Shown here piece by piece: positions 634 to 41,235 of a stretch of DNA of 53,660 bases. Under the pieces are notes generated by a model. It had not been told where the DNA came from and did no database searches. It saw only the letters and a program-made list of their open reading frames with translations. Position 1 is the stretch's first letter, and each line of letters opens with the position of its first letter. This stretch comes from a virus: the IMG/VR virus record IMGVR_UViG_3300025887_000028, positions 1 through 53,660 of that record, one strand, 5' to 3'. The translations under genes were made by a program, and so were the position numbers.

Positions 634-3600
634 GTTATTGTACCATTACTAGAAGTTTATCTATGTATGTTTGATCTGTGACTGAGAAGATATAAGCTTT
701 ACCTGAATCACCACCACCAGCATCATCTTCAAAGTAAGCACCTACAATCGCATAGTTGCCAGATATAGAAGCTGAGTACCCAAAACGATCACTCGCACTC
801 GTGCTATAAGCGGTAGGATTATCCAATGTGTGAACCAATGCACCAGTCGTAACATTGAAGATATAAACTTTACCAGAATTAAAACCACCAGCATCATCTT
901 CTCTATAAGCACCTACAATCGCATAATTGCCTGACATAGCAACTGTCGAAGCAAAATTATCACTAGAACTCGTACTATAAGCGGTAGGATTATCTAAAGT
1001 GTGAACTAGAGCGCCAGTCGTAACATTGAAGATATAAGCTTTACCTGAATCACCACCACCTGCATCATCTTCACCAATAGCACCAACAATTGCATAATTA
1101 CCTGATACGGCAACTGGCAAGCCAAAACGATCACTCAAACTCGCACTATAAGCATTAGGATTGTCTAATGTATGAACTAAAGCACTAGTCGTGACATTGT
1201 AGATATAAGCTTTACCAGATTGAAAATCACCAGCATCATCTTCATCAAAAGCACCTACAATCGCATAGTTGCCTGATATTGCAACTGACAAGCCAAAATT
1301 ATCACCAGAACTCGTACTATAAGCATTCGGGTTATCCAATGTGTGAACTAAAGCGCCAGTCGTGACATTGTAGATGTAAGCTTTACCTGAAGTAAGACCA
1401 CCAGCATCATCTTCTCTATAAGCACCTACAATCGCATAGTTATCTGATATAGCAACTGAGATGCCAAAATTATCATTCGCACTCGTACTATAAGCATTTG
1501 GATTATCTATCGTATGAACCAATGCGCCGGTTGTGACATTGAAAATATAAGCTTTACCAGAATCACTGCCACCTGCATCATCTTCAAAGTGAGCACCTAC
1601 AATCGCATAATTGCCTGATATTGCAACTGAGTAGCCAAAGAAATCATTCCCACTCGTGCTATAAGCATTTGGATTGTCAAGAGTATGAACTAAAGCGCCA
1701 GTCGTGACATTGTAGATATAAACTTTACCAGAATTAAAACCACCAGCATCACCTTCTTGATAAGCGCCAGCAATCGCATAGTTATCTGATATTGCAACTG
1801 ACAAGCCAAAGAAATCACTCACACTCGTACTATAAGCATTAGGATTATCAAGAGTACGGGCTAAAGCACCTCCGAACAAAGCAGGTTCTAGCAAAGATTG
1901 CAATGCATCAGTGCTTGGGTTTATACTGCTTGTGCTAGAAAAGTTTATTTTATCTATTTGACTGTATTTGGTAACATCGTCTACTGTGAAGATATAAGCT
2001 TTACTAGAAGTTGTACCACCAGCATCATCTTCGGAGTAAGCAGCAACAATCGCATAGTTACCTGATATTGCAACTGTCCAAGCAAAACTATCACCAGCAC
2101 TCGTACTATAAGCATTAGGATTGTCCAATGTGTGGACTAAAGCACCTGTTGTCACGTCAAAGATATAAGCTTTACCAGAACCAGAGCCACCAGCATCATC
2201 TTCACTATTAGCACCAACAATCGCATAATTACCTGATATAGCAACCGTGTCGCCAAAACTATCACCAGCACTCGTACTATAAGCATTAGGATTGTCCAAT
2301 GTGTGGACTAAAGCACCTGTTGTCACGTCAAAGATATAAGCTTTACTAGAAGAAGTACCACCGGCATCATCTTCATATCTAGCGCCTACAATCGCATAGT
2401 TACCTGATATGGAAACTGAGATACTAAATTGATCACCAGCACTCGTACCATAAGCATTTGGATTATCTAAAGTGTGAACTAGAGCGCCATTCGTGACATT
2501 ATAGATATAAGCTTTACCAGAATCATTACCACCAGTATCATCTTCTTGATCGGCACCAACAATCGCATAGTTACCTGATATAGCAACTGAGTAGCCAAAG
2601 ATATCGCTCGCACTCGTACTATAAGCATTTGGATTGTCTAATGTATGAACTAGAGCACCAGTCGTGACATTGTAGATATAAGCTTTACCAGAAAAAGTAC
2701 CACCAGCATCAGCTTCAGAATAAGCACCTACAATCGCATAGTTGCCTGATATGGCAACTGAGTCGCCAAAACGATCAGTCTGACTCGTACTATAAGCATT
2801 AGGATTGTCAAGAGTATGAACTAAAGCACCAGTCGTGACATTGAAAATATAAGCTTTACCAGAATTTAAACCACCTGCATCATCTTCGTTATACGCACCA
2901 ACAATCGCATAGTTTCCTGACATAGCAACTGAGTAGCCAAAATAATCAGCCTGACTCGTACTATAAGCGGTAGGATTGTCTAATGTATGAAGCAAAGCGC
3001 CAGTCGTGACATTGAAGATATAAGCTTTACCAGAACCAGAGCCACCAGCAGCATCTTCTAAATAAGCACCTACAATCGCATAGTTGCCTGATATTGCAAC
3101 CTCCCAGCCAAAGAGATCGTTCAAACTCGTACTATAAACATTCGGGTTATCTAATGTGTGAACTAAAGCACCTGCAGAGTATTCAATTTCAGTCTCGGTG
3201 TCATAGTACACTTCTCTACCAATGTATGATAATTCTTCACCAGCGAAGATGTAAGCTTTACCAGATTGAATACCACCAGCATCATCTTCTTGATAAGCAC
3301 CTATAATCGCATAATTGCCTGATATTGCAACTGAGTGGCCAAAGAGATCACCAGAACTCGTACCATAAGCATTTGGATTGTCTAATGTATGAACTAAAGA
3401 ACCAGTCGTGACATTGAAGATGTAAGCTTTACCAGAATTAAAACCACCAGCGTCATCTTCAAGATAAGCACCTACAATCGCATAATTACCAGATATAGAA
3501 ACTGAGTACCCAAAATAATCACCAGCACTCGTACCATAAGCATTTGGATTGTCAAGAGTGTGAAGCAAAGCGCCAGTTGTCACATTGAAGATATAAGCTT

Positions 3601-4426
3601 TACCAGAACCAGCGCCACCACCAGCATCATCTTCACCATAAGCACCTACAATCGCATAGTTGTCTGATATGGAAACTGAGGTGCCAAAATCATCAACAGC
3701 ACTCGTACTATAAGCATTAGGATTATCCAATGTGTGAAGCAAAGCGCCAGTCGTGACATTGAAGATATAAGCTTTACCAGAAGTAGTACCACCAGCATCA
3801 TCTTCAAGATAAGTGCCTACAATTGCATAATTACCGGATATCGCAACTGAGTCGCCAAAACGATCACTCAAACTCGTGCTATAAGCATTAGGATTGTCTA
3901 AAGTGTGGACTAATGCACCAGTCCCGACATTGAAAATATAAGCTTTACCAGAATTTAAACCACTAGCATCATCTTCAAAGTAAGCACCAACAATCGCATA
4001 GTTGTCTGATATAGCAACTGACCAGCCAAAACGATCAATATTACTCGTACTATAAGCATTTGGATTGTCAAGAGTATGAACTAAAGCGCCTGTCGTGACA
4101 TTGAAGATATAAGCTTTACCAGAAGTGTTACCACCGGCATCACCTTCAGCATAAGCAGCAACAATCGCATAATTGCCAGATATAGCAACTGAGTTGCCAA
4201 AATAATCACTCGCACTCGTACTATAAGCATTAGGATTGTCTAAAGTATGAACTAGAGCGCCAGTCGTGACATTGTAGATATAAACTTTACCAGAACCAGT
4301 GCCACCAGCATCATCTTCTTCATAAGCACCTACAATCGCATAGTTTCCTGATACAGCAACTGCAGAGCCGAAAAGATCATCTGCACTCGTGCTATAAGCA
4401 TTAGGATTGTCTAACACAGTGGTAAG
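1..4426 (-). repeat. Tandem ~171-bp coding repeats (FG-GAP blades)
   Basis: About 24 copies of a 171-174 bp unit fill the two minus-strand genes (21 in the complete gene, at least 3 in the partial one). Copies are highly similar at nucleotide level, for example recurring plus-strand stretches such as ccaatgtgtgaaccaatgc and gcatagttgcctgatat. Such arrays allow unequal recombination and are prone to collapse in assembly. Confidence 0.9.
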
Positions 4427-4561
4427 AGTAGTATTTCTGAAATCTGGTTCTAAGAAGTCTGCTGACGACTGGGCTGTACCATCAGCGAATCCGACGCTTT
4501 CGACATTCACGAAATTACGACTGTTATCGATAACAGGCGTACCTTTTACTTTAATCGCCAT
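635..4561 (-). CDS. Giant FG-GAP-repeat protein, three predicted seven-bladed beta-propellers
   Basis: This 1308-residue protein has an N-terminal module (about 1-45, MAIKVKGTPVIDNSR...) of a kind seen in phage fibre-like proteins. It then has 21 near-identical repeats of 57-58 residues built on LDNPNAYSTS, DxFGxSVAISGNYAIVGAY, EDDAGG and SGKAYIFNVTTGALV segments. The series is interrupted only after repeats 7 and 14, by non-repeat linkers of roughly 25 and 40 residues. This gives three blocks of exactly seven blades (about 46-440, 464-860 and 899-1300). The core matches the FG-GAP_2 pattern, and seven blades is the usual closed propeller number. There is no signal peptide or membrane segment. 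A late promoter lies just upstream, so a virion surface or receptor-binding role is likely but unproven. Confidence 0.88.
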   Translation of the reverse strand: MAIKVKGTPVIDNSRNFVNVESVGFADGTAQSSADFLEPDFRNTTLTTVLDNPNAYSTSADDLFGSAVAVSGNYAIVGAYEEDDAGGTGSGKVYIYNVTTGALVHTLDNPNAYSTSASDYFGNSVAISGNYAIVAAYAEGDAGGNTSGKAYIFNVTTGALVHTLDNPNAYSTSNIDRFGWSVAISDNYAIVGAYFEDDASGLNSGKAYIFNVGTGALVHTLDNPNAYSTSLSDRFGDSVAISGNYAIVGTYLEDDAGGTTSGKAYIFNVTTGALLHTLDNPNAYSTSAVDDFGTSVSISDNYAIVGAYGEDDAGGGAGSGKAYIFNVTTGALLHTLDNPNAYGTSAGDYFGYSVSISGNYAIVGAYLEDDAGGFNSGKAYIFNVTTGSLVHTLDNPNAYGTSSGDLFGHSVAISGNYAIIGAYQEDDAGGIQSGKAYIFAGEELSYIGREVYYDTETEIEYSAGALVHTLDNPNVYSTSLNDLFGWEVAISGNYAIVGAYLEDAAGGSGSGKAYIFNVTTGALLHTLDNPTAYSTSQADYFGYSVAMSGNYAIVGAYNEDDAGGLNSGKAYIFNVTTGALVHTLDNPNAYSTSQTDRFGDSVAISGNYAIVGAYSEADAGGTFSGKAYIYNVTTGALVHTLDNPNAYSTSASDIFGYSVAISGNYAIVGADQEDDTGGNDSGKAYIYNVTNGALVHTLDNPNAYGTSAGDQFSISVSISGNYAIVGARYEDDAGGTSSSKAYIFDVTTGALVHTLDNPNAYSTSAGDSFGDTVAISGNYAIVGANSEDDAGGSGSGKAYIFDVTTGALVHTLDNPNAYSTSAGDSFAWTVAISGNYAIVAAYSEDDAGGTTSSKAYIFTVDDVTKYSQIDKINFSSTSSINPSTDALQSLLEPALFGGALARTLDNPNAYSTSVSDFFGLSVAISDNYAIAGAYQEGDAGGFNSGKVYIYNVTTGALVHTLDNPNAYSTSGNDFFGYSVAISGNYAIVGAHFEDDAGGSDSGKAYIFNVTTGALVHTIDNPNAYSTSANDNFGISVAISDNYAIVGAYREDDAGGLTSGKAYIYNVTTGALVHTLDNPNAYSTSSGDNFGLSVAISGNYAIVGAFDEDDAGDFQSGKAYIYNVTTSALVHTLDNPNAYSASLSDRFGLPVAVSGNYAIVGAIGEDDAGGGDSGKAYIFNVTTGALVHTLDNPTAYSTSSSDNFASTVAMSGNYAIVGAYREDDAGGFNSGKVYIFNVTTGALVHTLDNPTAYSTSASDRFGYSASISGNYAIVGAYFEDDAGGGDSGKAYIFSVTDQTYIDKLLVMVQ

Positions 4562-31699: not shown

Positions 31700-31867
31700 A
31701 TGGCGCAACCTTTACCAGTTATTATAGAAGACTTAGTTGCTAAAGTAAGAGATAGTAAGACGCATCCTGAACAGAGGCAGCATTACGCAGGAACTTTGAA
31801 AAATATTATTGATGAAAGCACCAAAGCATATAAGCAATGGGAGCAAGATTGGGTTAATAGACGATAA
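31700..31867 (+). CDS. Small protein between genes 55 and 47, 55 aa
   Basis: A short reading frame begins MAQPLPVIIEDLVAKVRD and ends in a tryptophan-bearing helix (WEQDWVNRR). GATGGAG lies upstream. Its TAA shares one base with the gene 47 ATG (TAATG), which argues for real, coupled translation. It is predicted soluble and helical; no family is recognised. Confidence 0.65.
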   Translation: MAQPLPVIIEDLVAKVRDSKTHPEQRQHYAGTLKNIIDESTKAYKQWEQDWVNRR

Positions 31868-32934
31868 TGAAGATAGCCATTATAACTGACACACACTGGG
31901 GTGCGAGAAATGACAACGCTGCACTTGCACATCACTTTGCAAAATTTTATACCGACGTATTCTTTCCTACCCTAGAAGCTGAAGGTGTAAAGACTATTTT
32001 GCATTTGGGCGATTTAATGGATCGTCGTAAATATGTCAACTATGTTACAGCAAGAAACACTGAAACGTATTTCATCAAACCGTGTTATGACATGGGTATT
32101 GATGTTCATATCATTGCAGGTAATCACGACACATACTACAAGAATACGAACGAAGTCAACAGTCTACGCGAGTTGTACTCGGAAACAAAGTATGATAATT
32201 TAAATCTATATTGGGAAAAGCCGACTGAATTGCATTTCGATGGCTGTGATATTATGCTTGCGCCATGGATTTGCGCAGACAATTCACACGAGACACTTGA
32301 AATATTTCAGAATACCAAGGCGCAAGTTCTTATGGGTCACTTTGAAATCTCTGGCTTTGAGATGATGAAAGGTCACTTGTGTGATCATGGGTTAAGCAAA
32401 TCTATCTTCAAAAAGTTTGACGATGTTTATTCTGGTCACTTTCATCATCCGTCATCGCATGATAACATCACATATCTTGGCGCACCGTATGAGATGAACT
32501 GGTCGGATTATGACGGAAAACGTGGATTTCACATCTTTGATACCAAAACTCGTGAGATGACTTTCTATCAAAATCCACATAGAATCTTTCATAAAATCAT
32601 CTATGATGACACTGACATGACAATCGAAGATGTTGCAGAACTTGACATTTCTCTATTGACAAACACATTCATAAAGGTTATAATCAGAGAGAGAAATAAT
32701 CCATACATCTTTGATTTATTCCTTGACCGATTACAGTCAAGTGATGCTGCTGATATCAAGATTGTTGAAGATCATATGAACTTGGACTTAATCGGTGATG
32801 ACGAGTTGCTTGATGAAGCACAGGACACATTGACTATATTGAAGCAATATGTTGACACTATGAATCTGTCGAGCAATAAGGACAAGGTGAATACGTGCTT
32901 GCGTGAACTATACAGTGAGGCTATAAATCTGTGA
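31867..32934 (+). CDS. gp47: Recombination endonuclease subunit gp47 (SbcD/Mre11-like)
   Basis: This 355-residue metallophosphoesterase has all expected metal motifs: DTHWG (about 8-12), GDLMDRR (about 48-54), GNHDTY (about 82-87) and GHFHHP near residue 195. With gp46 it forms the Mre11/Rad50-type complex that resects DNA ends for recombination-dependent replication and contributes to host DNA breakdown. It overlaps gene 46 by four bases (GTGA). A consensus-quality promoter lies inside the gene at 32656. Confidence 0.95.
   Translation: MKIAIITDTHWGARNDNAALAHHFAKFYTDVFFPTLEAEGVKTILHLGDLMDRRKYVNYVTARNTETYFIKPCYDMGIDVHIIAGNHDTYYKNTNEVNSLRELYSETKYDNLNLYWEKPTELHFDGCDIMLAPWICADNSHETLEIFQNTKAQVLMGHFEISGFEMMKGHLCDHGLSKSIFKKFDDVYSGHFHHPSSHDNITYLGAPYEMNWSDYDGKRGFHIFDTKTREMTFYQNPHRIFHKIIYDDTDMTIEDVAELDISLLTNTFIKVIIRERNNPYIFDLFLDRLQSSDAADIKIVEDHMNLDLIGDDELLDEAQDTLTILKQYVDTMNLSSNKDKVNTCLRELYSEAINL
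32656..32684 (+). promoter_or_regulatory. Consensus sigma70 promoter inside gene 47
   Basis: TTGACA-N17-TATAAT is a perfect match to both hexamers with optimal spacing, about 245 bp upstream of gene 46. It could drive gene 46 and the island behind it. Confidence 0.6.
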
Positions 32935-34640
32935 TACATTTTGATAAGTTATCCTATAAAAATATATTGTCAACAGGCAACGCTTGGACTGAGATTGATC
33001 TGGCAGCCAACAAATCTACGCTGATCGTGGGTGAAAACGGTGCTGGTAAATCGACTATGCTAGATGCAATCTGCTTTGCACTTTATGGTAAACCTTTTCG
33101 CAAGATTAACAAGCCACAGCTAATGAATTCTATCAATCAAAAAGACTTGAAGGTCAAGGTAGAATTTACAACATCTGGTCACAAATATATTGTTCTTAGA
33201 GGTATGAAGCCAGCCATCTTTGAGATATGGCGAGATGGTGAATTGCTTAATCAAGACGCAGCGGCGCGTGACTATCAAGCTTATCTTGAGGAGAATATTC
33301 TTAAATTGAATTTCAAATCTTTCGGACAAGTTGTTGTACTGGGTTCAAGTACATTCGTACCTTTCATGCAGCTACCCGCAAAGTCTAGACGCGATGTTAT
33401 TGAAGATTTGCTTGATATTCAAATCTTTACTGTCATGAACACTCTACTAAAAGAGAAGATTTCTGCGAATAAAGATAATGTCGCGGAAATAAAATATCAA
33501 ATTGACCTGCTCAAAAACAAAATCGAATCTGCTAAGAATCACAACGAATCTATTCGCAAAATCAAAGAAACTGAGGTTTCGCGAATCAAAGATCGTGTGA
33601 AAGAACAGTTAACTATCATTGAAGCAGAGGAGAAGAATATTGAATCTGTTTCTTCAGTGATGGACAATCTCACTGCGCAGATCGGTGACAAATCTTCCGA
33701 GAAAAAGAAGCTAGAAGAGCTTGGTAAGATAGACGATAAATTAGACACGAAGATGCGTCAGATCATGAAGGAAGTGAAGTTCTATGAGAATCATGATAAC
33801 TGTCCAACGTGTAAGCAAGGTATCGAGCACACATTCAAAGAAGATACCAAATCTTCGCATCTGGAAAAGGTCAAAGAAATTGAGTTGGCAAAGGAGCAAA
33901 TTGTCGAGCGAAAGTCGAAGCATATCAATAGACTTAATGTAGTAAGCGATATCGAGGACGAGATTTCTGCGCATCATCTCAGAGTATCTGAGCATAGAGC
34001 GAATGTTAAGTTTGCAAAGAATACGCTATCAAGTATTCGAACAGAGCTTGAAGATGCCCAGAAAGAATTTGAGAGTATTGACACATCTACCATAAATAAT
34101 CTAGAAAGCGATCTAAAGTCTTACCACGCGAATCAAACTGAGTTGTTTGATAGTCGAGAAACTTTGTCACTTGTCAGTTCAATGTTAAAAGATGGTGGCA
34201 TTAAAACGCGAATCATCAAACAGTATATTCCTATCATGAATAAATTGATCAACAAGTATCTTGCTGCTATGGATTTCTTTGTGCAATTTGAATTAGACGA
34301 GAGTTTTAATGAAACAATTAAGAGTCGTTTTCGTGACGAGTTTTCTTACGCTTCTTTCTCCGAAGGAGAGAAATTGCGTATTGACCTTGCCCTACTATTT
34401 ACATGGAGAGCAGTAGCAAAACTTCGTAACTCGGTATCTACTAATCTACTGATCATGGACGAGATTATGGATAGTAGTCTTGACAACACAGGAACAGAAG
34501 AGTTCTTGAAAATTATCAACGAACTTACAGCAGATTCCAACATCTTTATCATCAGTCACAAGGGTGATCAATTGTACGACAAATTCGATAACGTTATCCG
34601 TTTCGAAAAGGTTAAAAATTTTAGTAGAATGGCTACATAG
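32931..34640 (+). CDS. gp46: Recombination endonuclease subunit gp46 (SbcC/Rad50-like)
   Basis: The SMC-type ATPase is 569 residues (T4: 560). Walker A GENGAGKST lies at about 35-43, coiled-coil arms at about 165-420, a zinc hook CPTCKQG near residue 290, a signature-like FSEGEKLRIDLAL, and Walker B LLIMDEIMDSSLD. The start is GTG inside the end of gene 47, so coupling is expected. It is the partner of gp47 in end resection. Confidence 0.95.
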   Translation: MIHFDKLSYKNILSTGNAWTEIDLAANKSTLIVGENGAGKSTMLDAICFALYGKPFRKINKPQLMNSINQKDLKVKVEFTTSGHKYIVLRGMKPAIFEIWRDGELLNQDAAARDYQAYLEENILKLNFKSFGQVVVLGSSTFVPFMQLPAKSRRDVIEDLLDIQIFTVMNTLLKEKISANKDNVAEIKYQIDLLKNKIESAKNHNESIRKIKETEVSRIKDRVKEQLTIIEAEEKNIESVSSVMDNLTAQIGDKSSEKKKLEELGKIDDKLDTKMRQIMKEVKFYENHDNCPTCKQGIEHTFKEDTKSSHLEKVKEIELAKEQIVERKSKHINRLNVVSDIEDEISAHHLRVSEHRANVKFAKNTLSSIRTELEDAQKEFESIDTSTINNLESDLKSYHANQTELFDSRETLSLVSSMLKDGGIKTRIIKQYIPIMNKLINKYLAAMDFFVQFELDESFNETIKSRFRDEFSYASFSEGEKLRIDLALLFTWRAVAKLRNSVSTNLLIMDEIMDSSLDNTGTEEFLKIINELTADSNIFIISHKGDQLYDKFDNVIRFEKVKNFSRMAT

Positions 34641-34649
34641 GAGAGTAAA

Positions 34650-34808
34650 ATGCAAACTGGAAGACTTGCTTCTTTAGAAAGCAAACATAAAGACTTGCAC
34701 AATCGTATTGAAGTTCTTGAGGCTGAGAAGGCACCTGAGAAGTATATTAAGCCTTTGAAAGTTGAAAAACTCATGATAAAGGACGAGATTGAAAAATTGC
34801 ATGTATAA
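34650..34808 (+). CDS. Small DUF465 (YdcH)-like helical protein, 52 aa
   Basis: The reading frame begins MQTGRLASLESKHKDLHNRI and ends PLKVEKLMIKDEIEKLHV. The pattern H-K-D-L-x-x-R-I ... LKxEKLxxKDEI is that of DUF465/YdcH proteins, short antiparallel helical hairpins of unknown role in proteobacteria. TAGGAGAG lies just upstream. It overlaps the next gene by 8 bp and appears to start the accessory operon after gene 46. Confidence 0.7.
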   Translation: MQTGRLASLESKHKDLHNRIEVLEAEKAPEKYIKPLKVEKLMIKDEIEKLHV

Positions 34809-35217
34809 CACTAAGATAGGATTCACATGCTCTGTTTTTGATTTACTCCACGCCGGACACATTGCTATGTTGCGCGAAGCAAAGACGCAGTGCGACTATC
34901 TTATCTGTGGGCTTCAGCTAGACCCGAATATTGATAGACCAGAGAAGAATAGACCGGTTCAGACTGTGGTAGAACGCTATACACAGCTATCAGCCGTCAA
35001 GTATGTTGACGAAATAATTCCGTATGTGACAGAAAAAGACTTGACAGATATGCTTGAAATGTATAGTATAGATGTAAGGATTTTGGGTGACGAATACAAA
35101 GACAAGGACTTCACTGGTCGTGAACTGTGTGATAAACTTGGTATTGACTTGTATTTCAATCGCCGCAACCATAGATTTTCATCAAGTGAATTGAGAAAAA
35201 GAATTTTGGAGAAATAA
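34801..35217 (+). CDS. Cytidylyltransferase-like nucleotidyltransferase (TagD-type)
   Basis: This 138-residue protein has the HxGH signature in GFTCSVFDLLHAGHIAML and the C-terminal motif RRNHRFSSSELRKRI, comparable with the RTxGISTT-type loop of TagD enzymes. Such enzymes make CDP-glycerol or other NDP-activated polyols or sugars from NTP and a phosphate ester. ATG 34801 is chosen; a TTG at 34789 is the alternative. It is followed by a one-base stop-start overlap with the FkbM gene. Substrate unknown; supply of an activated group for DNA or capsid decoration is inferred from the neighbours. Confidence 0.82.
   Translation: MYNTKIGFTCSVFDLLHAGHIAMLREAKTQCDYLICGLQLDPNIDRPEKNRPVQTVVERYTQLSAVKYVDEIIPYVTEKDLTDMLEMYSIDVRILGDEYKDKDFTGRELCDKLGIDLYFNRRNHRFSSSELRKRILEK
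35041..35069 (+). promoter_or_regulatory. Candidate internal sigma70 promoter
   Basis: TTGACA-N17-TAGTAT inside the cytidylyltransferase gene, about 150 bp before the FkbM gene. The -10 is weak. Confidence 0.35.
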
Positions 35218-35960
35218 TGAAATTAAAGAGGCATAATTATACGAAAAATATTTTAGACTTTATAGATGAATCTGAAGACGAATATATTGATTTAGAGTTA
35301 CAAGAGAATAAAGGTATGAAAGCCTATGTCCGACCTGAGACGTCTGATCCATTTGTTCTAAAAGAAGTCTCTTCTGGCGAATATCGCAAACTCAAAATTA
35401 CTCCAGATGATGTAATCGTTGACTTTGGTTTAAATATAGGTATGTTTACAACTTATGCCCTTTTACAAGGCGCAAAAGAGGTTCACTCCTTTGAAGCTGA
35501 AACTGAGAATTTTCAACTTGCTCAGATGAATGTGAAGCTTAACGGAGTTGATGATAGAGCATATCTCCATAATCGTGCTGTTGTTGGGAATGATGATGAA
35601 GAACGCTATTTCTCTATCAATGTAAAGAAAAATAAGGGTGCGCATTCACTTATTGAGAAGCGTGGTCGCGACACCGCCACCGTAAAGTGTATCAACGTCA
35701 ACAAGGTCTTAGAAGAAGTCAAGCCTAGCATTATTAAGATGGATATTGAAGGTGGTGAATATGAGGTCTTGAAATCCATTAAAAACTATGATACAATACA
35801 TCAATTGATATTTGAATTTCACCATGCACATTTGAACGATATTCCAGATCATCTTAAATATAATGAGATTTTGGACTTACTTCGTAAAGAGTTTTCCAAT
35901 GTTGAAGCAAGAGAAGATACAAAAGGCGCATGGGTATGTGTAGTATATTGTTGGAGATAA
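35217..35960 (+). CDS. FkbM-family methyltransferase
   Basis: This 247-residue SAM-dependent methyltransferase has motif I VDFGLNIGMFT (about 68-78), an acidic strand end HSFEAETENFQLA, and the FkbM signature KMDIEGGEYEVL near 175-186. FkbM enzymes typically O-methylate hydroxyls on sugars or related groups. It lies between the cytidylyltransferase and the TAGT-like glycosyltransferase, so its substrate may be the transferred sugar, perhaps on DNA. That link is inference; lipid or capsid glycan targets remain possible. Confidence 0.85.
   Translation: MKLKRHNYTKNILDFIDESEDEYIDLELQENKGMKAYVRPETSDPFVLKEVSSGEYRKLKITPDDVIVDFGLNIGMFTTYALLQGAKEVHSFEAETENFQLAQMNVKLNGVDDRAYLHNRAVVGNDDEERYFSINVKKNKGAHSLIEKRGRDTATVKCINVNKVLEEVKPSIIKMDIEGGEYEVLKSIKNYDTIHQLIFEFHHAHLNDIPDHLKYNEILDLLRKEFSNVEAREDTKGAWVCVVYCWR
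35769..35797 (+). promoter_or_regulatory. Extended -10 promoter upstream of the glycosyltransferase
   Basis: TTGAAA-N17-TACAAT with TG one base before the -10. It lies inside the FkbM gene about 165 bp before the TAGT-like gene. Confidence 0.5.
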
Positions 35961-35961
35961 C

Positions 35962-37467
35962 ATGAATAAAACACCTAAATCAGTTGTTGAAGAGAGCGGC
36001 GAATACGATAACTACCTCGACTTTCAAAAGAGAGTCGAGGACTCGTATAGTGTTGGTCTAGAAAAATTCTTTGGCGAAGAAGTACCAGATGTTCTGTACG
36101 ATCAGACGAAAGCCAAGCGTAAAAATGATGCTTGGAAAGTTGTTTATGTTCACTTCCGTAATATAGACGACCTTGAGGACTTCTGTAAGCGTATAAATCA
36201 AATGTTGGATTACAAGAAGAAAGTGACCTGGTATCCTTTGATTGATAGAGGTGCGACTCTGTTTGACGATGGAGATGAAGGTGAAATTGCAATTGATCGT
36301 ACACTTCTTATTCCTCGTAAGGAAACAAAAGAGAAGTTGCCTACTCTTGGTGAACTCAAGTGGAAGCAACACTGGCATGGTATGCCTGAGTTTGCGCAAG
36401 AGCATAGAGAACCGTTTCGCACCGTTCATGTGAAGTTTCGTAACGAAGAAGACTACCGAGAGTTTTCTCGGAAAATTGACCAAGAACTTACTGATAAGAC
36501 GAAAGCTATCTGGCATCCCAAGCTAGAGATTACAGCGAATCGTCTTCTGCGTTGGGTCGAAGATGGTGAGAGAACTCAAGCAAAACATCCACTCTACATT
36601 ATTTCAAAGACACGCTATGACAGTATGTTCACGTCACGTTCTTTGGCACGTATGCAGATTCCACATTACATTGCGATTGAGCCTCAAGAAGAAGAGCAAT
36701 ACGAAAAGGCACTAGACAACTTTGGTATTCGTGACTATGTAACACTTCTTGTTGCTCCATTCTCCAATCATGGCGATGGTCCAGGTCGTGCAAGAAACTG
36801 GTGTTGGGATCACTCTATCAGCATCGGTGCTAAGTATCACTGGGTCTTTGATGACAACATTAGTGACTTCTATCGTCTCCATGAGAATCAGCGTATTCGC
36901 TTTGAGAGTGGTGCAGGGTTTCGTGCGATGGAAGACTTTGTAGAGAGATTTAAGAATGTTTACATTGCTGGTCCACAGTATCGTTTCTTTATTGCACCAG
37001 ATCAGAAGTATCCTGCATTCGTTGCCAACACCCGTATATATTCTGCTTTGCTTATCAGGAATGATTGTAAGCATCGCTGGCGTGGTCGTTACAATGAAGA
37101 CACTGATATCTGCCTTCGGGTTCTGAAAGATGGCGACTGTACCATTCAGTTCAATGCATTTATGCAAGGCAAAGCTGCAACTCAGACTGTAAAGGGTGGT
37201 AATACCGCTGAGTTCTATCACGCAGAGAACTCGGAGAAGATTGATGATGCCACGAACTACAATGCTGAAGGTACTGTGAACAAATCGCAAATGCTTGTTG
37301 ATATGCACCCAGATGTAGCCCGTCTTGTCTGGCGCTATGGTCGCTGGCACCACTGGGTTGACTATGAACCCTTCAAGAAGAACCAGTTGAAGTATGTTGA
37401 TGGCTTCGAGGTGCCTACTGGCGTAAATAATTACGGAATGCGTCTAGAAACCGATTTTAAGGGTTGA
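35962..37467 (+). CDS. TAGT/GREB1-like glycosyltransferase with duplicated N-terminal domain
   Basis: In this 501-residue protein, residues about 58-105 and 150-195 are two copies of a small domain (VVYVHFRNIDDLEDFCKRIN / VHVKFRNEEDYREFSRKID, each ending near a W-(Y/H)-P). From about 205 on is a GT-A-type domain: GRARNWCWDHS, HWVFDDNISDFYRLHENQ with a DD metal site, RWRGRYNEDTDICLRVLKDG, and a C-terminal WRYGRWHHWVDY. This order fits the TET-associated/GREB1-like glycosyltransferases that decorate modified bases in phage DNA (family link from memory). The base carrying the sugar is not evident here, as no hydroxymethylase is in the window. Confidence 0.8.
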   Translation: MNKTPKSVVEESGEYDNYLDFQKRVEDSYSVGLEKFFGEEVPDVLYDQTKAKRKNDAWKVVYVHFRNIDDLEDFCKRINQMLDYKKKVTWYPLIDRGATLFDDGDEGEIAIDRTLLIPRKETKEKLPTLGELKWKQHWHGMPEFAQEHREPFRTVHVKFRNEEDYREFSRKIDQELTDKTKAIWHPKLEITANRLLRWVEDGERTQAKHPLYIISKTRYDSMFTSRSLARMQIPHYIAIEPQEEEQYEKALDNFGIRDYVTLLVAPFSNHGDGPGRARNWCWDHSISIGAKYHWVFDDNISDFYRLHENQRIRFESGAGFRAMEDFVERFKNVYIAGPQYRFFIAPDQKYPAFVANTRIYSALLIRNDCKHRWRGRYNEDTDICLRVLKDGDCTIQFNAFMQGKAATQTVKGGNTAEFYHAENSEKIDDATNYNAEGTVNKSQMLVDMHPDVARLVWRYGRWHHWVDYEPFKKNQLKYVDGFEVPTGVNNYGMRLETDFKG

Positions 37468-37800: not shown

Positions 37801-39252
37801 ATGAAAAATATGCTAATCAATTCGAACTATCGCAAAATTGACGTTCCTATTCGTGAACTGCTTCTTCGCTACGGCGAGATTGATGTTCAGCCTGTAGGTC
37901 AACGACTAGATACAGAGCCTCAACTTGAGAAATCAAATGATCAATCAAAAGCACAAGGTATCATCAACTCAATTATGATGGGCGTTGACTTAGGTCAGAT
38001 CACAATTCACGAAAAAACTCCAGGCAGCTTTGCTTACGCTGATACTCCTCCTGTAATGGTCGATGGTCAGTGGCAGTTTGAACTGTTAGATCCAACCACC
38101 ACAGCTGGCAGCATGTTTGCTTATGAAAGCGTTGATGGTGGGCACCGTAAACGCTACATCTTCATGTATTTCAACAACAAATTTCGTTGGAATGGGATGT
38201 ACTATAGTGATCTTTCGCCAGAGCAAAAGAAAAAATTTCTTGAAACGAATCTTACATTTTGCATCTATTCAAACTTGTCTATCTATGAAACTGGTTACAT
38301 CTTCCGCTCTTTGAATGAGACTACCGATGTAAATCATCAAGAGATGTTGAACTCGTATGGAGATATTCCAATTGCGAATGCAATTCGTAACACTGTTCGC
38401 CCTGTTCGTGGTGTAAACAACAAAATACACTCTTTCTTTGAGTTTAGCCAAAAAGAAGGCAAAGCAAAGGTGTTCAACGCTATTGCGTTTGATAACAAGC
38501 GCCTTCGTCATGACGAAATGATTGCTCGTGTCTTTTATCGCTACTATGATGGTGGTGGCTTGGGTAAAGCTGATGATGTTGCACTTGAAGAGTTGTACGA
38601 GTCTGATTTGTCACAGAAAGAGGTGGACAAAATCTATGCGAGTGTAAAGAAACTGCTAAACTTTGTTGAAGAAATTTCAACTCAAATAAATCGTTCACTA
38701 GCCAAAAAGATGAACCAAACCGAGTTTAGCTTGTTCTCCCGTATCTGGCTGTATATGGAAGAAGAATTTGAAACTTTCAAAGTCAATGATTATGCAGAGT
38801 TTTATGAAGCTATCTCTACTGCTTATGCTCCATTCACTCTTCCTTATGATAGTCAACCAGCCGAACTTCGTCAGCCTTCTCCATGGGATGCGAACAAAAC
38901 ACGTGGTCAACAGTTCAAAGATGTTTTAGGTTATCACCGTGACCGTGAACCTATCTTTGAGTGCTTGATGTGGCTATTGAAAAGCGTTGATATGGCTTCT
39001 TTGGTAACTCTAAAGGATCCAAAGCGTATCTTTCCACGTGCGTGGCGTGAAGCAAAACTTATTGAACAAGGCTTCAAGTGTGCGATTTCAGGTGAACCAT
39101 TGACAATGGCTGATGCACATGGCGCACACAAAACAGCCCATGCTGAAGGTGGTCTGACTACATACGATAACTTGGCTATGGTTTCAGCTTATCACAATAA
39201 GCGCATGGGCAGCATGACTGTTGAGCAATACACTTCATTGGTAGCAGCATGA
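37801..39252 (+). CDS. DUF262 (GmrS/ParB-like) - HNH nuclease fusion
   Basis: In this 483-residue protein, the N-terminal half has DUF262 landmarks: GIINSIMMGVDLGQITIHEK, the D-G-G-H-R-K-R element comparable with the DGQQR of DUF262, then YIFRSLNETTDVNHQEMLNS. The C-terminus (about 410-480) is HNH-like: CAISGEPLTMADAHGAHKTA, TTYDNLAMVSAYHNKRMGS. DUF262 plus HNH/DUF1524 is the layout of GmrSD, BrxU and SspE nucleases, which sense modified DNA. Here it is phage-borne, with its own early promoter, beside a presumed DNA glycosyltransferase. Target unknown: unmodified host DNA, rival phage DNA, or a non-nuclease role. Confidence 0.75.
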   Translation: MKNMLINSNYRKIDVPIRELLLRYGEIDVQPVGQRLDTEPQLEKSNDQSKAQGIINSIMMGVDLGQITIHEKTPGSFAYADTPPVMVDGQWQFELLDPTTTAGSMFAYESVDGGHRKRYIFMYFNNKFRWNGMYYSDLSPEQKKKFLETNLTFCIYSNLSIYETGYIFRSLNETTDVNHQEMLNSYGDIPIANAIRNTVRPVRGVNNKIHSFFEFSQKEGKAKVFNAIAFDNKRLRHDEMIARVFYRYYDGGGLGKADDVALEELYESDLSQKEVDKIYASVKKLLNFVEEISTQINRSLAKKMNQTEFSLFSRIWLYMEEEFETFKVNDYAEFYEAISTAYAPFTLPYDSQPAELRQPSPWDANKTRGQQFKDVLGYHRDREPIFECLMWLLKSVDMASLVTLKDPKRIFPRAWREAKLIEQGFKCAISGEPLTMADAHGAHKTAHAEGGLTTYDNLAMVSAYHNKRMGSMTVEQYTSLVAA

Positions 39253-39893: not shown

Positions 39894-40321
39894 TGGGTAA
39901 AAAAACTAAGCATCCAGCATCTGAGACTGGAGCAATGCGAGAAGCATTGGGTGTGCCTTATTTCCGACAAGTTCCTCTTGAAGCTGTGGCTGCTGGCGCT
40001 GTATCTTTGGAGTATGGCGCACTCAAGTATGCACATCGCAATTGGGAAAGGGGTCTTCCTTGGCAGCAAATGATCGACAGTCTCAAGCGTCATATTGACG
40101 ACTTCGAGCGCGGGCATGACTACGACAGTGGACCAGACGGTTCTGACCTTCATCAAGTTTGTATGATTATGGCATCTGCTATGATGTTATCTGCGTCAGT
40201 AATTCGAGGCGTAGGTGAAGATGATCGTATGCCTGCCACTGGAGAAGATGCGTTGTCTGCAAAACAATGTGCAAAATGGATGAAAGAACAACTTGATAAT
40301 TCTAGATTGAAGGGTAGTTAA
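39893..40321 (+). CDS. dATP/dGTP diphosphohydrolase-like protein (MazG-type)
   Basis: The 142-residue protein has the core AAGAVSLEYGALKYAHRNWE followed by SLKRHIDDFERGHDYD and SDLHQVCMIMASAMML. This is the pattern of the helical MazG-type domain annotated in phages as dATP/dGTP diphosphohydrolase (N-terminal, DUF5664-like). Such enzymes hydrolyse purine dNTPs and can shape nucleotide pools for base-modified DNA. The start overlaps dexA (TAATG) and the end overlaps the next glycosyltransferase (TAATG). Substrate choice is not readable from sequence. Confidence 0.75.
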   Translation: MGKKTKHPASETGAMREALGVPYFRQVPLEAVAAGAVSLEYGALKYAHRNWERGLPWQQMIDSLKRHIDDFERGHDYDSGPDGSDLHQVCMIMASAMMLSASVIRGVGEDDRMPATGEDALSAKQCAKWMKEQLDNSRLKGS

Positions 40322-41235
40322 TGGATATTGAAATTAGAACAAGCGATTTACAAGATAAGAAGCTGTTCATAGCCACGCCAATGTATGGTGGGCAATGTGC
40401 AGGTATGTTTACAAAAGCGACGAACGATTTAGCTATGGCGTGTACGCGTCATGGCATTGATGTGCGTTTCTACTATCTATTTAATGAAAGTTTGATCACA
40501 CGGGCTCGCAACTACTGTGTTGATGAATTTTTACGATCTGACTGTACACATCTACTTTTTATCGATTCGGATATCGGATTTGATTATAAAGACGTGTTAA
40601 CATTGTTGCATCTTACTGGTACAGATGACTACGATGTTATGACTGGACCTTATCCTAAGAAGACAATTTCGTGGGAGAAAGTTGCTAAAGCTGCCGAGCA
40701 AGGCTTTGCTGACGAGAATCCATTCATGCTGGAGCACTTTGTTGGTGACTATGTTTTCAATCCTGCTGAGGGTATAAAGTCGTTTAAGATCGACGAGCCT
40801 GTTGAAATTCGAGAAGGCGGTACAGGCTTTATGATGATTACCCGTAAAGTATTTGAAAAATATGAAGAGTCATATCCAGACCTCAAATACAAACCCGATC
40901 ATGTACGCACTGAAAATTTCGACGGTACTCGCGAGATCATGGCGTATTTTGACACTATTATTGATCCAGATACAAGACGTTATCTTTCAGAGGACTATAT
41001 GTTTTCGTATAACGTCCGAAAGATGGGTATGAATATTTGGATGTGTCCATGGATGAAGTTGAAGCATGTTGGTTCATACATCTTCGGAGGATCAATTAGC
41101 GCAATGGCAGCTATTAAAGCATCACCAACTGCATCAAAAGAATCTAACAAAAAACATTACTTGCAATCACCTAAAAAAGATGATACAATCAACAGACAGC
41201 AACGTAGGGCTGCAAAGACAAAGAAGGATACTTAA
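40321..41235 (+). CDS. GT-A-type glycosyltransferase
   Basis: This 304-residue protein begins KKLFIATPMYGGQCAG, then ESLITRARNYCVDEFL and a DxD metal motif in HLLFIDSDIGF (about 78-88). GGTGFMMITRKVFEKY and a later RRYLSEDYMFSYNVRKMG with an acidic catalytic-type residue follow. These are features of GT-A (GT2-like) glycosyltransferases. The C-terminal 50 residues are basic and Ser/Lys rich, possibly a DNA- or capsid-contacting tail. It is coupled to the diphosphohydrolase-like gene. DNA or virion protein could be the acceptor. Confidence 0.8.
   Translation: MDIEIRTSDLQDKKLFIATPMYGGQCAGMFTKATNDLAMACTRHGIDVRFYYLFNESLITRARNYCVDEFLRSDCTHLLFIDSDIGFDYKDVLTLLHLTGTDDYDVMTGPYPKKTISWEKVAKAAEQGFADENPFMLEHFVGDYVFNPAEGIKSFKIDEPVEIREGGTGFMMITRKVFEKYEESYPDLKYKPDHVRTENFDGTREIMAYFDTIIDPDTRRYLSEDYMFSYNVRKMGMNIWMCPWMKLKHVGSYIFGGSISAMAAIKASPTASKESNKKHYLQSPKKDDTINRQQRRAAKTKKDT
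41161..41189 (+). promoter_or_regulatory. Extended -10 promoter for gene 45
   Basis: TTGCAA-N17-TACAAT with TG before the -10, inside the end of the glycosyltransferase gene, 48 nt upstream of the sliding clamp ATG. Confidence 0.62.

Follow-up and report, generated by a model that had tools for sequence, protein, structure and literature searches.

The T-even phages glycosylate hydroxymethylcytosine (hmC) by means of gp42, alpha- and beta-glycosyltransferases (GTs) and, in T6, the TAGT enzyme ggt, and they draw on host UDP-glucose for this. Other phages encode their own sugar-nucleotide supply for DNA glycosylation, such as RB69, which has arabinosyl-hmC (PMC6024577), and the Shewanella phage Thanatos, with deoxypentosyl cytosine and the UDP-xylose pyrophosphorylase TH1_063 (PMC12838424). 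The Yersinia phage YerA41 carries middle-expressed sugar genes, including a cytidylyltransferase, and its DNA resists sequencing (PMC7354516, partial text). Solitary TAGTs, those without alpha- or beta-GT, are found in 288 of 753 GT-bearing phage genomes and were flagged as potentially novel transferases (PMC13216743, partial text). DNA glycosylation by phages is, in this way, already known, and so are TAGTs and the phage enzymes that make sugar nucleotides. Here we describe an island of the 53.7-kb virus record IMGVR_UViG_3300025887_000028 (the window, i.e. the whole stretch of DNA analysed) in which a TAGT gene is packed together with genes for an FkbM O-methyltransferase and a HIGH-type nucleotidyltransferase. 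We interpret it, with a probability of roughly 0.55, as a modular sugar-decoration island of the replication and recombination cluster that modifies phage DNA. The combination of these three enzymes with a ParB-associated domain is new as far as the literature searched shows, although an earlier mention elsewhere is possible.

By its gene content the window belongs to a marine T4-like myovirus. Genes for terminase, sheath, tube, portal and capsid (4.7-28.7 kb) are followed by uvsY, uvsW, sigma-55, gp47, gp46, the island, gp45, gp44, gp62, regA, gp43, uvsX and gp41. The DNA polymerase shares 51% identity with its best match from a cultured phage, and a search for near-identical DNA among cultured phages gave a 1% match at best. 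The island (34650-37467) consists of four genes on the + strand, separated by overlaps or gaps of a few bases, in such a way that the ATG of the FkbM gene and the stop codon of the nucleotidyltransferase gene share one base. Its features are the following:

34650-34808, + strand: small DUF465 protein of 52 aa, opening the unit (PF04325, 28.8 bits, cut-off 25)
34789-35217, + strand: HIGH-superfamily nucleotidyltransferase, predicted to act on sugar phosphates (PF01467, 49.6 bits)
35217-35960, + strand: FkbM-family S-adenosylmethionine (SAM)-dependent O-methyltransferase, 247 aa (PF05050, TIGR01444)
35962-37467, + strand: TAGT glycosyltransferase, 501 aa, with two N-terminal small-domain repeats and a GT-A domain (PF20691)
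36115-36255, + strand: TAGT N-terminal repeat 1, aa 52-98 (TAGTn profile built here, 56.3 bits)
36361-36561, + strand: TAGT N-terminal repeat 2, aa 134-200 (TAGTn profile, 106.4 bits)
36850-36858, + strand: DDN at aa 297-299, the metal/NDP-sugar motif predicted for the GT-A domain (alignment of homologues)

A first-pass annotation, made from the sequence alone, had named a tightly packed unit of these three enzyme classes and had not recognised the trio as a described pathway. The packing was confirmed, all three classes score above their family cut-offs, and no description of the trio was found in the literature searched, though one may exist elsewhere; neither TAGT with FkbM nor phosphomannomutase with a nucleotidyltransferase gave anything relevant there for phage DNA modification, with the same reservation.

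In a comparison set of about 350 loci, the same genes were found again in the gp46-gp45 gap of relatives. A 4.3-kb contig from another phage type, L079, has different upstream genes and again a closely packed set of nucleotidyltransferase, TAGT N-domain, FkbM and TAGT genes, at around 51% identity (L numbers designate loci of the set). The repeated packing in L079 makes the trio a recurring unit and, together with the genes in the gp46-gp45 gap, argues that the arrangement is not a chance adjacency. The DUF465 gene also lies between gp46 and the nucleotidyltransferase gene in L130, L137-L139, L176 and L179. Judged by gene order, the island is modular, with related phages combining the same parts differently. 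The locus resembles the T-even system in its T4-like replication cluster, in the Pfam family of its TAGT and in its neighbourhood, since the T4 a-gt gene occupies the same 55-47-46-45 surroundings within the replication module. It differs in that the window has neither gp42 nor AGT, that its TAGT belongs to a branch other than that of T6 ggt, and that FkbM and a phage nucleotidyltransferase are added.

The assignment of the TAGT is clear, with 144.8 bits for PF20691 at aa 210-413 (cut-off 27.5) and E=6e-47 for PHROG 842, and all 107 homologues of at least 250 aa carry the motifs DDN and YNED. The AlphaFold2 (AF2) model (pLDDT 78, pTM 0.78) shows a GT-A domain at residues 205-475 with an acidic DxD-like motif, and Foldseek matched it to GT-A enzymes and viral TAGTs; among viral structures the top matches were TAGTs, a T-even-type beta-glucosyl-HMC-alpha-glucosyltransferase appearing at rank 14. 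T6 ggt, the DNA transferase of this Pfam family that has been characterised, scores 205 bits with the TAGT2 profile, does not match the profile of the window TAGT and represents a sister group, and both types lie near each other in L132, L035, L016 and L021. The N-terminal 200 residues contain two copies of one small domain, which in other phages forms the C-terminus of ParB_N proteins whose genes immediately precede TAGT (L039, L042, L068, L074); a Pfam match to the ParB N-terminal domain was obtained in L039 and L042, and a weak one in L068.

The FkbM protein is equally well placed in its family, with 62.0 bits for PF05050 (cut-off 22.7) and 77.8 for TIGR01444 (cut-off 37.7). It contains the motifs DFGLNIG and KMDIEGGE, and the SAM motif and the K(MIL)D(IV)EG motif were found in 80 and 94, respectively, of 96 homologues. 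Its linkage to TAGT is tight: in 16 of 18 lineages, FkbM genes at least 50% identical have TAGT or its N-domain as a neighbour, against 0 of 33 for more distant phage FkbM (Fisher p=2e-11, the lineages being non-independent), and in L018, L059, L033 and L069 the FkbM gene is located between separate genes for the N-domain and the GT domain. Family and linkage together suggest that FkbM would O-methylate a hydroxyl of the transferred sugar.

The nucleotidyltransferase gene starts at TTG 34789 or, more likely, at ATG 34801, both overlapping DUF465. Its product matches CTP_transf_like (PF01467) with 49.6 bits against a cut-off of 21, and PHROG 7878 with E=5e-35; it has the motif HAGH, and HxGH is present in 121 of 121 homologues. 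The curated families nearest to it are rfaE_dom_II (75.8 bits, cut-off 181.5), the heptose-1-phosphate adenylyltransferase domain of HldE/RfaE, and TagD (66.9 bits, cut-off 165.4), both scores being far under the equivalog cut-offs. Its PDB matches are ECT/TagD; an identification as TagD was rejected, as the protein falls under that cut-off and is slightly nearer to RfaE-II.

More can be learned from its neighbourhood, defined as 5 kb around the homologues in 34 lineages, which were obtained by clustering at 92% identity. Sugar or DNA-glycosylation genes were found within this distance in 25 of the 34: TAGT in 10, phosphomannomutase in 10, gp42 in 8, UDP-glucose/GDP-mannose dehydrogenase-like genes in 7, epimerase-like genes in 6 and AGT in 4, plus other glycosyltransferases. 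Across the loci fetched with this gene, 39 such genes occur in the 235 kb near it against 7 in the 157 kb farther away (binomial p=2e-4, lineages again non-independent). For example, L179 has the order gp46, phosphomannomutase, nucleotidyltransferase, x, TAGTn, TAGT, x, epimerase, dehydrogenase. On the basis of this neighbourhood we take the protein for a sugar enzyme. Homologues also adjoin gp42, dCMP deaminase and AGT in L135, L142, L161 and L180; in L135, a 195-kb relative, gp46 and the nucleotidyltransferase gene are followed further on by kinase, gp42 and dCMP deaminase genes, and then by a T4-type AGT (PF11440, E=8e-71). The thymidylate synthase (TS)-family proteins encoded in these islands are orthologous to T4 gp42 (that of L135 is 55% identical to it); they keep the catalytic Cys and have Asp in place of the Asn of thymidylate synthase, the position that decides between dUMP and dCMP specificity in the family.

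Several gene arrangements around this nucleotidyltransferase deserve mention on their own. A phage phosphomannomutase of eukaryotic type (PF03332, E=6e-24) adjoins it in L016 (2609-3310), L179, L194 and L205. Truncated UDP-glucose/GDP-mannose dehydrogenase-like genes, often by uvsX, adjoin it in L187 (444-1292), L186 and L179 (12042-12872), hinting at a uronic-acid decoration. In marine T4-like contigs (L135 9995-16282, L142, L161, L180, L190, L194, L205) it stands next to a dCMP hydroxymethylase of the gp42 type, in most of them along with dCMP deaminase and in some with T4-type AGT or T6-type TAGT2, and these contigs likely represent glycosyl-hmC phages.

The linkage data bear directly on whether the nucleotidyltransferase belongs with the other two enzymes. 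FkbM and TAGT could form the only functional pair, the nucleotidyltransferase being a separate module for an NDP-sugar or CDP-alcohol of another pathway that merely shares the insertion hotspot after gp46. The pair is indeed found without it in L005, L006, L018, L059, L069 and others, it is found with TAGT and no FkbM in L007, L130 and L138, and in many lineages it lies elsewhere, between uvsW and 55 or beside uvsX, without TAGT. On the other hand, genes for sugar nucleotides and DNA glycosylation are over-represented around it, the trio is packed again in L079, and in L007, L132 and L134 it is separated from TAGT by a single gene X, a glycosyltransferase. We consider a functional pair without the nucleotidyltransferase doubtful, and regard a cassette for sugar-nucleotide synthesis, transfer and O-methylation as probable.

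In such a cassette the nucleotidyltransferase would couple a sugar phosphate to a nucleotide, yielding an NDP-sugar, as its family and neighbours suggest; TAGT would transfer the sugar, its duplicated N-terminal domain presumably positioning the acceptor; and FkbM, given its family and its tight linkage to TAGT, would O-methylate a hydroxyl of the transferred sugar. The likeliest acceptor would be phage DNA, with the sugar going onto a hydroxymethylated base or onto a first sugar that such a base carries, and the product an O-methylated glycosyl base that could block host nucleases. From the DNA hypermodification operon proposed in the first-pass annotation, the joint activation, transfer and O-methylation is retained, in view of the FkbM-TAGT linkage, the linkage of the nucleotidyltransferase to sugar genes and the recurrence of the trio, and the DNA acceptor did not gain the same backing. 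The class of the activating enzyme was right as well, and the small group that it was said to activate is replaced by a sugar, which is likelier for an RfaE-II/HldE-like protein.

It is also conceivable, and compatible with the DNA-modifying island as a version of it, that TAGT works like T6 ggt and attaches its sugar to a first one, which another transferase encoded outside the window or phrog_1574 (see below) has placed, with FkbM capping the chain. The TAGT of T2/T6 acts on glucosyl-hmC (PMC13216743, partial text), and the slot between nucleotidyltransferase and TAGT is filled in relatives by another GT (RXYLT1-like, GT4 or T6-type TAGT2). Against it, no first GT adjoins TAGT in the window or in L130, the location of phrog_1574 does not change with the presence or absence of TAGT, and a base handle would still be required. 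We hold this version as tentative.

The expression class of the island is relevant to its target. The window has 17 copies of TATAAATA, the late promoter of T4 type, where 3.05 are expected; 11 of the 17 are in the structural block (4626-28213), most right before gene starts, and none is found between 28,221 and 39,785. In the islands of 13 relatives none was detected outside the coding sequence of the nucleotidyltransferase. By this promoter criterion the island is not a late virion-assembly unit, and the motif distribution supports an early or middle expression instead of a late one. As late promoters mark structural genes, their absence also argues against a role on a virion glycan. This bears on a different explanation, in which TAGT and FkbM tailor a non-DNA target, for instance a protein of the virion or the host or a glycan on the cell surface, with a sugar nucleotide supplied by the nucleotidyltransferase. 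The location in the replication cluster, the ParB-like domain partner of TAGT and the homologues of the nucleotidyltransferase adjoining gp42 and AGT also speak against such a target. In its favour, the FkbM and GT-A families act mostly on glycans, the nearest solved folds of TAGT are protein or lipid GTs, the TAGT of L078 adjoins several genes resembling glycan GTs in sequence, a 167-kb relative has a GDP-sugar/glycan cluster elsewhere, and no base-handle enzyme was found with any window-type TAGT in the records searched, most of the viral ones being fragments. We judge a non-DNA target to be rather improbable, and DNA is somewhat favoured as the target of the cassette.

The missing base handle is the main difficulty for a DNA-modifying island, and the following results weigh against it. 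The first-pass annotation expected the handle enzyme outside the window, and in fact the open reading frames (ORFs) of the window gave no match to profiles for gp42, AGT, phosphomannomutase, Ugd or epimerase (beta-GT was not profiled separately), so that phosphomannomutase, too, is absent by profile search. The search for a hydroxymethylase or TS homologue that it proposed, run on the window and TAGT relatives, gave no gp42 beside a window-type TAGT and a single candidate. gp42 was found neither in the window nor in 35 other viral records with TAGT (most of them fragments, the longer ones including records of 167 and 96 kb), nor in five of six cultured TAGT phages (Aeh1, Ah1, 65, POP12 and Kuja). 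Aeh1 and 65, both TAGT carriers, belong to the T4 relatives lacking gene 42; none is listed for them, and the cytosine of such relatives was inferred to be probably without major modification (PMC2993671). No TET/JBP protein was detected in 27 TAGT records, mostly fragments, a negative that carries little information since the control was silent too, and no C5-methyltransferase in the available part of ten small TAGT/FkbM records. Finally, the window TAGT falls outside the branch of T6 ggt, the beta-glucosyl-HMC-alpha-glucosyltransferase.

Regarding candidates, the TS-family matches in G012, Aeh1 and Ah1 are ordinary thymidylate synthases, and that of G012 was rejected as a hydroxymethylase for its likeness to ordinary TS and the Asn that it has in the specificity position. 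PTm1 encodes a divergent TS-family protein with Asp at this position, which makes it a possible handle enzyme. In the 167-kb relative, inspection by eye of roughly half of the proteins revealed no recognisable handle enzyme; it has a ThyX-like protein, and its GDP-sugar/glycan cluster lies away from TAGT. In a gp42-free version of the DNA-modifying island, TAGT would act on another handle or directly on the base, steered by the ParB-associated N-terminal domain. An O-methylated glycosyl base made in this way, from a self-made sugar nucleotide and by a TAGT without gp42-type hydroxymethylase, would be a class of hypermodified nucleoside not described before, a proposal that we regard as unlikely on present data.

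Compared with the solitary phage TAGTs (PMC13216743, partial text), the window shares a TAGT apparently without alpha- or beta-GT, and what is added here is a conserved context of FkbM, nucleotidyltransferase, phosphomannomutase and a ParB-like domain, which the available part of that source does not report. It shares with RB69 and Thanatos a phage-encoded sugar-nucleotide supply feeding, in their case, DNA glycosylation; its supply enzyme differs in being of the HIGH superfamily, RfaE-II/TagD-like, and an O-methyltransferase is added. YerA41 also has a sugar module with a cytidylyltransferase, in its case annotated as IspD-type, another family, and neither TAGT nor FkbM is reported in the available part of that source (PMC7354516). 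A 2026 survey recorded TAGTs without alpha- or beta-glucosyltransferase in many phages and gave no explanation for them. The island places them in a setting that can be tested, in which an activating enzyme (in some phages along with phosphomannomutase and sugar dehydrogenase or epimerase) is combined with an O-methyltransferase and with a TAGT that has the ParB-associated domain. Should DNA be the acceptor, O-methylation of the sugars would further protect it from nucleases that recognise glucosylated DNA, those of type IV restriction among them, and the phage would not depend on UDP-glucose from the host. Should the acceptor be something else, a TAGT could no longer be taken as a sign of DNA modification in a large group of phages.

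The genes flanking the island are:

31867-32934, + strand: gp47, recombination nuclease subunit, upstream flank (PHROG 100, E=3e-105)
32931-34640, + strand: gp46, recombination nuclease subunit, upstream flank (PHROG 77, E=1.5e-174)
37801-39252, + strand: HNH-type nuclease-like protein, 483 aa, downstream neighbour (endonuclease VII/HNH PHROGs, weak, aa 410-479)
40321-41235, + strand: phrog_1574, second predicted GT-A glycosyltransferase, next to gp45 (PHROG 1574, E=3e-65; AF2, Foldseek)

The nuclease-like protein has a C-terminal HNH-like region with a DGGHRKRYI stretch and a PADLOC NsnA match (E=3.9e-4), and its membership in the cassette is uncertain. In relatives, the slot after TAGT is occupied by varied nuclease-like genes (HNH, ParB-like, GIY-YIG, helicase-like), and it is possibly a homing or competitor-exclusion site. 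No RNA feature of the window matched Rfam. A large minus-strand ORF of 1308 aa (635-4561), opposite to all other main genes, showed only weak matches, to phage families of unknown function. The phrog_1574 protein is annotated as unknown and is modelled as a GT-A glycosyltransferase with the motif LFIDSDIGF; it adjoins gp45 in many marine T4-like relatives, and it was left out of the cassette because it keeps this place whether TAGT is present or absent.

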